NCBI GenBank assembly: GCA_026982075.1
Contig: JALSHU010000014.1
Coordinates: 1 to 32,595 of the forward strand
Source of the DNA: Sulfurovum sp.
Lineage (GTDB): Bacteria; Campylobacterota; Campylobacteria; Campylobacterales; Sulfurovaceae
DNA length: 32,595 bases
Direction of reading: 5' to 3'
The notes beneath the pieces were generated by a model. The model had not been told where the DNA came from and searched no databases. It saw only the letters and a list, made by a program, of their open reading frames with translations. A program made the translations under genes and the position numbers. Below are positions 5,479 to 15,438 of this stretch, piece by piece (the stretch's first letter is position 1; every line of letters starts with the position of its first letter).

Positions 5479-5799
5479 ATGAAAAGAATAATGAGTATAT
5501 TAGCCTTGGTTGTGTGCATAATGGTTAGCGTGCCTGTGACTGCTGAAGCGGGAGCAAAAAAAGGTCAAAAAATTTTTAAAAAGAAGTTTCGGAAAAAGTG
5601 TGGATTTTCTGGAGTGCGTTTTGCAAGACATCATACGCAAGGAGAGTGGGAAGAGATTTATGATGATGATAGATTTCCTGAAGAAGCCAAAAAGATTTGT
5701 CCACGCTTAAAAGTAAATAAGATTAAAGAAAGCTGGTGGGAACATGTGTATGAATTTTCATATATCTATGCAAAAGATGGAAAAATACCAAAATGTTAA
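5479..5799 (+). CDS. Secreted cytochrome-c-like protein lacking CxxCH (paralog 1 of 3)
   Basis: Signal peptide, KKGQKIFKKKFRKKCGFSGVRFA...WEEI...KKICPRL...IPKC; similar to 5914-6228 and 6736-7056. Confidence 0.75.
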   Translation: MKRIMSILALVVCIMVSVPVTAEAGAKKGQKIFKKKFRKKCGFSGVRFARHHTQGEWEEIYDDDRFPEEAKKICPRLKVNKIKESWWEHVYEFSYIYAKDGKIPKC

Positions 5800-5913: not shown

Positions 5914-6228
5914 ATGAATAAAATAACAAAATTAACGGTTTCTACATTACTTGGTTTAGCAGTTCTATCGACAACAGCTACAGCCGATGTTAAAAAAGGG
6001 CAAAAGATTTATCTTAAAAAGCTCAAAGCCAAGTGTGGTTTTTCTGGCGCAAAATTTGCACATAAACATACTCAAGATGAGTGGGAAGCGATAAAAGAAG
6101 CTGGAAAATTTGGAGAAGAAGTCACAAAAATCTGTCCTAAAGCAACACTCAAACCTAAATATGAAAACGATGTTTATGATTTTGCGTATGAGTATGCTAA
6201 AGATTCAGGAAATGTACCTTCTTGTTAA
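5914..6228 (+). CDS. Secreted cytochrome-c-like protein lacking CxxCH (paralog 2 of 3)
   Basis: Signal peptide, KKGQKIYLKKLKAKCGFSGAKFA...WEAI...TKICPKA...VPSC. Confidence 0.75.
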   Translation: MNKITKLTVSTLLGLAVLSTTATADVKKGQKIYLKKLKAKCGFSGAKFAHKHTQDEWEAIKEAGKFGEEVTKICPKATLKPKYENDVYDFAYEYAKDSGNVPSC

Positions 6229-6324: not shown

Positions 6325-6621
6325 ATGAAAAAATTTGCTATTGCTATGTTATTTGGAGCTACTACACTACTTATGGCTGATGGAGCTGCTGCCTTTGCTA
6401 AATGTGTTGGCTGTCATGGAGCAAACGGAGAAAAAGCTGCACTTGGAAAATCTGCAATTATCACAGGTCAAGATGCTGCTAAAACAGTAGAACAACTAAA
6501 TGGCTATAAAGCAGGTACACTTAATCAACACGGTATGGGTGCCCTTATGAAAGGTCAAGTAGCTTCTATGGATGACGCTGCTATTAAAGCTGTAGCTGAT
6601 TATATCGCTGCAATGAAATAA
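6325..6621 (+). CDS. Cytochrome c553-like monoheme cytochrome c
   Basis: Signal peptide then FAKCVGCHGANGEKAALGKS, Met ligand region HGMGALMKGQ, C-terminal ADYIAAMK. Confidence 0.9.
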   Translation: MKKFAIAMLFGATTLLMADGAAAFAKCVGCHGANGEKAALGKSAIITGQDAAKTVEQLNGYKAGTLNQHGMGALMKGQVASMDDAAIKAVADYIAAMK

Positions 6622-6735: not shown

Positions 6736-7056
6736 ATGAAAAATATGATTAAAATAGCATTGGTTTCACTACTTGGCTTAACATTATTGACAATAAGCAT
6801 TGATGCAGCCAGTATTAATAAGGGTCAAAAGATTTTTAGTAAAAAACTGAAAGGGGCATGTGGTTTTACTGGTGCTAAGTTTGCAGCAAGTTTTAAACAA
6901 AAAGAGTGGGAAGAGATTTTTAAATCTGGCAAAATGGAAGAAGAGGCAAGAAAACTATGTCCAAATATCCAAGTATGGGAAAAGAAATGGGAAGAAAACC
7001 TATTTGAATTTGCTTACGAATATGGGGCAGATTCTGGAAATGAACCTGCTTGTTAA
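6736..7056 (+). CDS. Secreted cytochrome-c-like protein lacking CxxCH (paralog 3 of 3)
   Basis: Signal peptide, NKGQKIFSKKLKGACGFTGAKFA...WEEI...RKLCPNI...EPAC. Confidence 0.75.
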   Translation: MKNMIKIALVSLLGLTLLTISIDAASINKGQKIFSKKLKGACGFTGAKFAASFKQKEWEEIFKSGKMEEEARKLCPNIQVWEKKWEENLFEFAYEYGADSGNEPAC

Positions 7057-12932: not shown

Positions 12933-13035
12933 ATTTCTTCCTTGATGTTTATATTTATGGAACATTTTACAATAAAAATTGTGTATGTTTCGTGCACATA
13001 AAGAAGTATTTATTTTATTAAATCAATAGATTTAC

Positions 13036-13064
13036 TTGACATTGGAAAAAAATTAGGCTAAAAT
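13036..13064 (+). promoter_or_regulatory. Sigma70-type promoter
   Basis: TTGACA (13036-13041), 17-bp spacer, TAAAAT (13059-13064). Confidence 0.75.
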
Positions 13065-13071
13065 TTTTTAT

Positions 13072-13225
13072 AACATTAAGAGACTAGAAAATGTTTTTAC
13101 AAACCCTGAGTTATAACATCATAGATGTTTTTTATATTTCTTGAGATTTTGTCTCCCCAAGAATTGTTAATCTCAGTGAAAAATAAATTTTTTATTCAGG
13201 GTTTCTAAAAATATTTCAAATATAT
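13072..13225 (+). ncRNA. Putative structured 5' leader RNA / cis-regulatory RNA, unassigned class
   Basis: P1 stem 13089-13110 with 13195-13216 (21/22 positions paired, 2 as G-U); internal hairpins AACATC-ATA-GATGTT (13115-13129) and TGAGATT/AATCTCA (13142-13148/13169-13175); follows consensus promoter and precedes RBS. Confidence 0.55.
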
Positions 13226-13247
13226 TAAGAATAGAAAGGAAAAGCTT

Positions 13248-13700
13248 ATGTCCCCATCATGTCCAATATCAACAAGAAGAGTAGATGCGAATATGGTGAG
13301 AGTAATCTCATTGCAAGTGGCACTTTTTTCAGTGATCCTTCTGTTTACACAAGAGAGTTTTTTTGCTTTAGTGCTTTTTTTTGATTTTATGGTGAGAACT
13401 TTACGTCTTTCGCAACTTAGTCCTTTTCACCTTGTGAGTAGCTTGATACTTAGTGGGTGGGGTATCGCACCCAAATTATGTGATGAATCTCCAAAACGTT
13501 TTGCGCTTTATCTGGGTTTGGTAATTTCATTTATTTTACTTCTGTTATTTGTATCTGGTTTAACAGTGATTGCAACATTTATAACAGGTATTTTACTTAT
13601 ATGCGCATTACTTGAGACAGCATTTGATTTTTGTATAGGATGTAAGATATACTACGCTATTCAATTACTAAATTCATACTATAAACAAAGGGTTTCCTAA
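13248..13700 (+). CDS. DUF4395 family membrane protein
   Basis: CPISTRRVDANMVRVISLQVALFSV..., FFDFMVRTL, CIGCKIYY; matches remembered DUF4395 pattern. Confidence 0.75.
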   Translation: MSPSCPISTRRVDANMVRVISLQVALFSVILLFTQESFFALVLFFDFMVRTLRLSQLSPFHLVSSLILSGWGIAPKLCDESPKRFALYLGLVISFILLLLFVSGLTVIATFITGILLICALLETAFDFCIGCKIYYAIQLLNSYYKQRVS

Positions 13701-13751
13701 ATATATCTCCTTTGTTATATTGTATTGATTTTAACAAAGGAAATATATAAG

Positions 13752-14165
13752 ATGATAGGGATTTCCAGTAAAACGATTTATGGGATAGCTGCACTAAATG
13801 AATTGAGTACTATTCAAGGGGATGAAGTACTTAAGATTAAAGATATTGCTGCGAATGCAAACATACCTCAAAATTTTTTAGAACAGATACTTTTAGAACT
13901 TAAAAAAAAGGGTATTTTGACTAGTATTAAGGGTGCATATGGTGGTTATAGACTTGCTAAAGACCTTAAAGATATTACACTTAAAGATGTGATTGTTATT
14001 TTAGAATCAGATGTTTTTTCTGATATATGTAAAACAGACAACCCTGCATTAAAACTTTTTTGGGGAGACTTGAAGCAGAATGTCTCATCTGCATTTGACA
14101 TACCTCTTTCAAAGCTTAAAAGTTATCAATTACAAGCAAATGAAACACTCAATTACTCAATCTAA
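13752..14165 (+). CDS. Rrf2 family transcriptional regulator
   Basis: SKTIYGIAALNEL...IKDIAANANIPQNFLEQILLELKKKGILTSIKGAYGGYRLAK; ATG with AAAGGA RBS at 13752. Confidence 0.9.
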   Translation: MIGISSKTIYGIAALNELSTIQGDEVLKIKDIAANANIPQNFLEQILLELKKKGILTSIKGAYGGYRLAKDLKDITLKDVIVILESDVFSDICKTDNPALKLFWGDLKQNVSSAFDIPLSKLKSYQLQANETLNYSI

Positions 14166-14178
14166 ACTAGGAATATAA

Positions 14179-15438
14179 ATGAACAATACAACAGACTTTA
14201 ATTACTTTAATACACTTTTGGTACAAAACATAGGTAACAGTGTAGGACCCATTGCACCTACTATTACACCTTCTGCTGCATTTGGTTATGAGAATGCAGA
14301 AGAGGCTGAAGGTATTTTTGCATCAGAGGTAAATAAGCCACTCTATGCAAGGGTTGGCAATCCTACCAATGCAAAACTGGAGTCTGTGGTTGCAAAAATG
14401 GAAGGTGGTTTTGCTTCGATTGCAACGTCATCTGGTATGGGTGCCATCTCTATGGTGGTCACCGCTTTTTTAAACTCAGGAGATGAACTACTTTGTATCG
14501 GTGGTTTTTTTGGTGGTACATATGCTTTGGTGAATGATACACTAAAACGTTTTGGCATCAGTAATAGTTTTTGTACTGTGGATGATTTTGCACATATTGA
14601 AAACACATTAAAACGTGGTATCAAAATGGTATTGATGGAATCTGTGGGTAATCCAAGTTTGACACTGCCAGATGTACAACGCATTATAGATTTGTGCAAT
14701 AAGTATGAAACACTGTTAATGATAGACAATACACCCACTCCATTACTGCTTAGACCTTTAACTATGGGAGCAGATATTGTGGTACATTCAAGTACCAAAA
14801 ATATGTCAGGACACTCTGCTGCTTTAGGTGGGATTGCGGTATTTCGTGAGGTAAAAGAAGCAGGGGACAAGCTTTTGAATGATAAATATGCCGATATACA
14901 TAAAATCGTAAAAAAGATGGGTAAAAAAGCTTTTATACCTATTTGTAAAAAACGTGCCATTCGTGATTATGGTATGACGGCAAATGCCTTTGGTTCATTT
15001 ATGACTATGATAGGATTAGAGACACTTTCACTTAGGGTTGAAAGAGTGAATAAATCTGTAGAAGCCATCTCTTTGTTACTTGATGAAAAGTTACCCCAAG
15101 GTGTGAGTGTGAACCATCCATGTCTTAGTTCTAGTCCTGACAATGCACGCTATAAGTCAGATTTTCCTGATGGTTGTGGACCCCTTTTAACACTTGACTG
15201 TGGTACAAAAGAAAGAGCATTTAAGTTACTTAATCATCTTAAATTGGTCATACTGACCGCAAATATAGGTGACAATAGAACATTGGCATTACATATGACT
15301 AGTACCATTTACTCAGATTTTGATGAGGATGCACGTGCTTTTTTAGGTGTACATGAGGGACTTATTAGGGTTTCTATAGGACTTGAAGACCCCAGAGAAA
15401 TTGCAGAAGACTTTCTACAAGCAGCTAATGCGATTTAA
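14179..15438 (+). CDS. Cys/Met metabolism PLP-dependent enzyme (O-acetylhomoserine sulfhydrylase / methionine gamma-lyase-like)
   Basis: SSGMGAISMVVTAFLNSGDELL, DNTPTPLLLRPLTMGADIVVHSSTKNMSGH (PLP lysine). Confidence 0.88.
   Translation: MNNTTDFNYFNTLLVQNIGNSVGPIAPTITPSAAFGYENAEEAEGIFASEVNKPLYARVGNPTNAKLESVVAKMEGGFASIATSSGMGAISMVVTAFLNSGDELLCIGGFFGGTYALVNDTLKRFGISNSFCTVDDFAHIENTLKRGIKMVLMESVGNPSLTLPDVQRIIDLCNKYETLLMIDNTPTPLLLRPLTMGADIVVHSSTKNMSGHSAALGGIAVFREVKEAGDKLLNDKYADIHKIVKKMGKKAFIPICKKRAIRDYGMTANAFGSFMTMIGLETLSLRVERVNKSVEAISLLLDEKLPQGVSVNHPCLSSSPDNARYKSDFPDGCGPLLTLDCGTKERAFKLLNHLKLVILTANIGDNRTLALHMTSTIYSDFDEDARAFLGVHEGLIRVSIGLEDPREIAEDFLQAANAI

Follow-up and report, generated by a model that had tools for sequence, protein, structure and literature searches.

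In Neisseria, Correia elements (CREE) may be found between genes and their native promoter, and RNase III can cut them (PMC2649163). We describe an element placed in a like manner in a 32,595-nucleotide stretch of DNA from Sulfurovum sp. (contig JALSHU010000014.1, hereafter the window), at the head of an operon with a link to sulfur metabolism. Sulfurovum abounds at deep-sea vents and in other sulfidic settings. On balance we think it probable that the element is a cis-acting leader RNA of MITE derivation with its structure under selection, and that one arm, comprising stems P3 and P4, functions through a site formed by a bulge and a terminal loop. The status of leader RNA is strongly supported by the comparison of homologues.

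All features of the locus lie on the + strand. A sigma-70-type promoter, TTGACA-17-TAAAAT, occupies 13036-13064, with TTGACA at 13036-13041, TAAAAT at 13059-13064 and a spacer of 17 nt; reading of the sequence confirms what an earlier note on this DNA had reported, and TTGAC is kept upstream of nearly all homologues. The palindromic box AATCAATAGATT (13021-13040) overlaps or adjoins the -35 hexamer and is probably the operator of the Rrf2 protein encoded downstream. The basal stem P1, which pairs 13089-13110 with 13195-13216, is just as the note described, with 21 of 22 positions paired, a C13100/C13205 mismatch and two G-U pairs. Within it P4, formed by GAGAUU (13143-13148) and AAUCUC (13169-13174), closes the terminal loop UUGUCUCCCCAAGAAUUGUU at 13149-13168; in homologue L039 the strands are GAAAUU/AAUUUC. 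This corresponds to the stem TGAGATT (13142-13148)/AATCTCA (13169-13175) that had been proposed from the window, and the homologues keep it as P4. The Shine-Dalgarno sequence AAAGGA follows at 13235-13240. The MFE of the element is -36.2 kcal/mol (z = -3.07) and none of 200 shuffles is equally stable. The locus is single copy, with no repeats of the element in its own genome.

Three genes follow, encoding a DUF4395 membrane protein (13248-13700, start codon at 13248; PF14340, E 2.3e-28), an Rrf2-family regulator (13725-14165; PF02082, also passing NCBIfam rrf2_super) and a Cys/Met metabolism PLP enzyme (14179-15438; PF01053). The enzyme is nearest O-acetylhomoserine/O-acetylserine sulfhydrylase, with 283.6 bits against TIGR01326, a score that does not reach the cut-off of 495, and its top PDB match is 8sf5. 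Elsewhere in the window, three small paralogous secreted proteins of 104-106 aa with the motif CGFSG/CGFTG are encoded at 5479-5799, 5914-6228 and 6736-7056, flanking a cytochrome-c-like gene at 6325-6621.

Homologues were found by way of DUF4395 relatives in public genomes, and most Sulfurovum upstream regions show the same architecture, a TTTACTTGACA promoter followed by a long closed stem that encloses conserved motifs. Conservation of these upstream regions in relatives, on which the earlier note had made its proposal depend, is strong. We aligned 39 copies and read their folds. P1 has about 18-22 bp and P2 about 5-8 bp; P3, variable in length, leads to P4. A one-sided bulge, nnGGACAAGGG, with the consensus motif GGACAAGGG, lies between P2 and P3. 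The terminal loop of about 20-26 nt contains UUGUCUCCCC, or a close variant, and then AUUGUU, and the loop motif family TTGTCTCC/TAGTCTCC/TTGTTCT is present in all 39 homologues. Mean pairwise identity is 0.71 for the loop region, 0.78-0.79 for the P1 arms, 0.35-0.41 for the P3/P4 strands and 0.35-0.42 for the flanks. The P3/P4 strands, though variable in sequence, remain paired. The spacing from P1 to the start codon ranges from 17 to 124 nt across the 39 homologues (median about 31). At L049 and L075 extra sequence and a second hairpin lie between leader and Shine-Dalgarno, giving spacings of 113 and 124 nt, which suggests that the distance from leader to start codon is not critical.

A structure of 30 pairs applied to the 39 homologues gives standard pairs in 95.0% of cells. 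Two-sided changes occur at 22 of the 30 pairs, against a shuffled mean of 11.2, and at 11 of the 18 P1 pairs of the family; the cells with double changes number 117 as opposed to 31.5 in shuffles. On no measure of covariation does any of 500 shuffles match the real alignment, and when the partner is slid by one column as a control, pairing falls to 48-53%. An alignment of 34 sequences without the window lineage agrees on covariation. The earlier note had looked to covariation to separate selected from fortuitous stems, and in the 39-copy alignment it is strong in P1, P2 and P3. Mispairs comprise 90 G-U cells against 12 A-C cells, or 64 against 12 without a nearly constant U-G pair. This excess indicates that the selected molecule is the + strand RNA, and selection of a cruciform at the DNA level is disfavoured. 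The element displays two marks of a structured cis-regulatory RNA, a conserved, covarying structure and a constant placement within a single operon's 5' leader.

The consensus bulge and terminal loop are mutually complementary. Bulge and loop could form 4 to 7 bp with each other in every one of the 36 copies that have the bulge motif. The complementarity falls mostly into the register GGACAA/UUGUCU or the register AAGGG/CCCUU, which are indistinguishable on these sequences; in L249 the second is intact where the first is broken. Such complementarity is suggestive only of a contact, a pseudoknot, between the two motifs, and covariation cannot decide the matter because both are nearly invariant.

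The window copy belongs to a divergent lineage, in which L038 stands closest to it and L065 comes next. P1, in which many changes are compensated, is kept together with P4 and the terminal loop, and the best-conserved bulge motif is missing, its place taken by a local hairpin at 13115-13129; the function of this copy may be altered or reduced. The hairpin, AACATC-ATA-GATGTT, had been read correctly from the window but is restricted to it and to its closest relative, L038. Similarly AATAAA-TTT-TTTATT is present at 13182-13196, but it overlaps P1 and is not conserved in homologues. Alternative folds had also been proposed for GAGA at 13143-13146. Both TCTC partners (13152-13155 and 13171-13174) can indeed pair, but pairing with the first is specific to the window lineage and a GAGA/UCUC(13152) switch is rejected.

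At the Rfam gathering threshold the window and 12 homologues gave no matches, and permissive scans returned only chance-level matches to unrelated families; over both kinds of scan 13 homologues are without an Rfam hit. A known Rfam class is therefore rejected, in keeping with the impression gained from the window that no familiar riboswitch fits. The open-access literature on DUF4395, on riboswitches or noncoding RNA of Sulfurovum and on new structured RNAs in the phylum yielded no description of the element, and nothing beyond passing mentions of the DUF4395 gene family. The proposal of an undescribed, conserved cis-acting leader RNA stands, given the absence of an Rfam match, the conservation and the covariation.

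When the window lineage was left out of training, model R2 still recovered the window copy (13090-13215) at 41.9 bits, with a rough E of 1.7e-8, and it scores the window, L038, L065 and L053 at 30.6-43.3 bits. It also finds an unseen copy, L225, in the GC-rich genome G392 from another genus of the same family. Here the P1 letters are changed yet still pair, GGACAAGGGC and TTGTCTCCCC are kept, and GUGGACAAGGGCAU and UUUAUUGUCUCCCC are intact. A pattern search for the core motifs at other sites was uninformative, with chance matches about as many as in the reversed control. At L080:1907-2005, upstream of the same operon type in Campylobacteraceae, a perfect 22-bp hairpin with AGTCTCC occupies the same position; it is barely detected by the models (20.8 bits with R1, no match with R2) and its kinship to the leader RNA is uncertain.

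Which gene does the leader accompany? The earlier note had tied it to DUF4395, and the element does sit upstream of that gene, but the constant downstream gene is Rrf2, since the element stays where DUF4395 has decayed. In G061 (L227) and G003 (L249) the DUF4395 gene is a remnant and the leader is still in front of Rrf2; G003 has lost most of the PLP enzyme as well. This attachment to Rrf2 after neighbours are lost would suit a binding site for a regulatory protein, possibly an operon product, that exerts translational or stability autoregulation. We regard such a site as improbable, however, as Rrf2 proteins are DNA-binding regulators and there is no candidate RNA-binding protein. CsrA, for which the GGA motifs in the bulge and Shine-Dalgarno might have been sites, is rejected, being absent from all 13 same-genus genomes searched, that of the window included.

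Among NCBIfam equivalogs the Rrf2 protein is nearest CymR, at 81.5 bits far below the cut-off of 195. The promoter box AATCTATAGATT is its putative target. The box AATCWATAGATT at the promoter also precedes cysH-cysD-cysN (L218, L221) and a YeeE/YedE transporter gene (L219, L223), genes that were named from a reading of their translations; the string AATCAATAGATT, with at most two mismatches, lies ahead of these genes and of the orthologous operons. Since the promoter palindrome is common to cysH-cysD-cysN, the operon appears to lie in a sulfur-assimilation regulon and its sulfur link is strengthened. The genes that bear the box likely constitute an Rrf2 sulfur regulon. The palindrome-promoter AATCWATAGATTTACTTGAC (L218, L219, L220, L221, L222, L223) is also found ahead of a gene for a FadL-type outer-membrane protein.

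Secondary matches to the leader model are mostly hairpins with ends GGGCACCTCTAAWAACCCTARATGCTCATAA, which form a MITE-like family found in several species, at many sites in each genome. A MITE-like family with ends GGGCACCTCTAAWAACCCT, in Sulfurovum and other Campylobacterota, has a form of about 264 bp and a hairpin form of about 50 bp (L176:1490-1780, L181:1490-1780, L197:1490-1800 and many further sites). MITE-like copies lie directly before start codons at L121, L182 and L195, and at the outgroup locus L157 a copy adjoins the same promoter. A sequence-only profile made from 43 MITE ends, leaders left out, matches the leaders at both ends, in register, from the end of the element up to about 33 nt inward. 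The best leader scores 22.4 bits, the maximum among 3900 dinucleotide shuffles is 9.3 and 30 of the 39 leaders exceed that best shuffle, figures to be read with the caution that it was the leader model that led to the MITE family, and the similarity was thereby in part selected for. Chance is an unlikely explanation because the register holds at both ends and extends past P1 into P2. The leader has the terminal inverted repeats common to the repeat family and does not occur as multiple copies at unrelated sites. We judge it highly likely, from these resemblances, that the leader descends from a domesticated MITE. The suspicion of a mobile element, raised from the window, was therefore well founded as to the ends, which look MITE-derived, but the leader itself shows fixation, vertical inheritance and covariation.

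Of 78 Sulfurovum genomes 49 have the element, and so does G392, a genome from a sister genus. There is one strong match in each of 48 Sulfurovum genomes, and a weaker one in G061 was confirmed by eye. No strong match came from 300 genomes sampled across the order outside the genus, and G392 was the sole addition from a family-level scan. Every copy with a fetched locus is on the coding strand directly upstream of the operon, the homologues lying after the promoter and ahead of the gene that opens the DUF4395–Rrf2–Cys/Met PLP-enzyme operon. Each genome that carries the leader has it once, the secondary model matches that were read belonging to the MITE family, and none of the genomes scanned showed a second target gene.

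The PLP enzyme was detected at E below 1e-120 in 59 genomes of the genus, and 47 of these have the element. L232, L234, L236, L237 and L238 have the promoter and DUF4395-Rrf2 operon without it, L230 has a degenerate copy and L229 has Rrf2 and the PLP enzyme only; the remaining genomes are not classifiable from the fetched stretches. Seven operons of two other genera (L242-L248) share the palindromic promoter, and their short leader has no insert. On a phylogeny of the PLP enzyme, four changes account for the absence label, against a shuffled mean of 8.5; the outgroups are without the element and separate losses fall in L050, L059 and L062/L064, with support that is modest in places. We read this pattern as one gain near the base and then losses, which the clustered presence fits. 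As the operons at L050, L059, L062, L064 and L232 manage without the element, it is not essential. These operons, and the MITE-like ends, are what a neutral relic of a mobile hairpin, devoid of RNA function, might display. We give that explanation almost no credence in the face of covariation that includes stems inside P1, the G-U bias, the conserved loops and a single fixed site across the genus.

How might the leader RNA act? In the mechanism that we favour, a MITE-type hairpin would have settled between promoter and start codon in an ancestor of the Sulfurovaceae and been retained, and selection on RNA structure would now maintain it where the Rrf2 sulfur-operon mRNA begins. P1 and P2 would form a long rigid base and the P3/P4 arm the functional part, in which the GGACAAGGG bulge probably touches the UUGUCUCCCC loop as a bulge-loop pseudoknot to create a binding or switching site. 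The leader may then add a post-transcriptional layer, acting on mRNA stability or translation, atop promoter control by Rrf2.

P1 is closed in every copy, with 18-22 bp, so a classical P1 switch is unlikely. Among the homologues no conserved terminator or alternative fold sequestering the Shine-Dalgarno was found, and no conserved terminator after P1 was seen by eye; an intrinsic terminator at that position is disfavoured, its U-tract not being conserved. The window MFE fold leaves AAAGGA unpaired, and pairing of the loop with the Shine-Dalgarno, weak by eye and clade-specific, is also disfavoured. An upstream ORF (ATG/TTG/GTG-GAC-AAG-GGC...) is rejected, since several homologues have ACG, GCG, CCG or ATA as first codon and the frame is not maintained. 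The variable U-tract bears too on the idea of a trans-acting small RNA made from the same promoter. The consensus promoter, the compact stable fold and a U-rich stretch after P1 in some copies are compatible with such a product, which is nevertheless very unlikely when the tract is not conserved and the operon start codon always falls within about 17-124 nt downstream.

A special case of the favoured reading is a metabolite riboswitch, whose bulge-loop site would bind a sulfur metabolite, for example cysteine, O-acetylserine/homoserine, homocysteine or sulfide, and alter translation of the operon. We hold this possibility tentatively. Conserved unpaired motifs within variable stems point to it, as does a single defined operon in a sulfur-assimilation regulon. 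Against it stand the absence of a visible expression platform, the great length of a P1 that is always closed, the lack of a second target gene in the genomes scanned and the loss of the motif from the window lineage. More doubtful still is the fuller claim of a new metabolite-sensing leader class in Sulfurovaceae, a domesticated MITE that responds to a sulfur-assimilation metabolite by way of the bulge-loop pseudoknot. The stem might instead serve without any ligand, as an RNase III substrate or mRNA-stability hairpin of the CREE type that is cut or shields the 5' end. A long, near-perfect MITE-type stem in a 5' leader, placed as is the CREE in mtrCDE (PMC2649163), and the MITE ancestry both lend weight to this suggestion. 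We consider it unlikely since it leaves the conservation of the bulge and terminal loop, far from P1, unexplained.

The leader RNA is without counterpart in Rfam 15, and a conserved core with covarying stems makes it a small, directly testable object. The relationship to MITEs makes the birth of a structured regulatory RNA traceable: related mobile copies persist in the same genus, outgroup operons have the same promoter without the insert and the divergent lineage of the window has rebuilt part of the core. If the element were a MITE-born metabolite sensor, it would be an unusually traceable case of a regulatory RNA class derived from a transposon.

Comparison with known systems places the leader among several. 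It is like the cis-regulatory classes of Rfam, riboswitches included, in its 5' position, in covarying stems that enclose conserved unpaired nucleotides and in its defined metabolic operon; it is unlike them in that no model matches and that ligand and platform are putative only. With the Campylobacterota MITE family it shares about 33 nt per end, which align to P1/P2 in register, whereas the MITE interior is unrelated in the copies read, with no GGACAAGGG/UUGUCUCCCC core seen, and the family occupies many sites per genome. The nearest functional parallel, by analogy, would appear to be the Correia element, which like the leader is short and non-coding, has inverted-repeat ends and can lie between a native promoter and gene (PMC2649163). 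CREE can form an mRNA hairpin and be cut by RNase III (PMC2649163). CREE are multi-copy and mobile, whereas the leader is single-copy and covarying, held at one orthologous site across the genus, and, unlike CREE, has conserved internal unpaired motifs.
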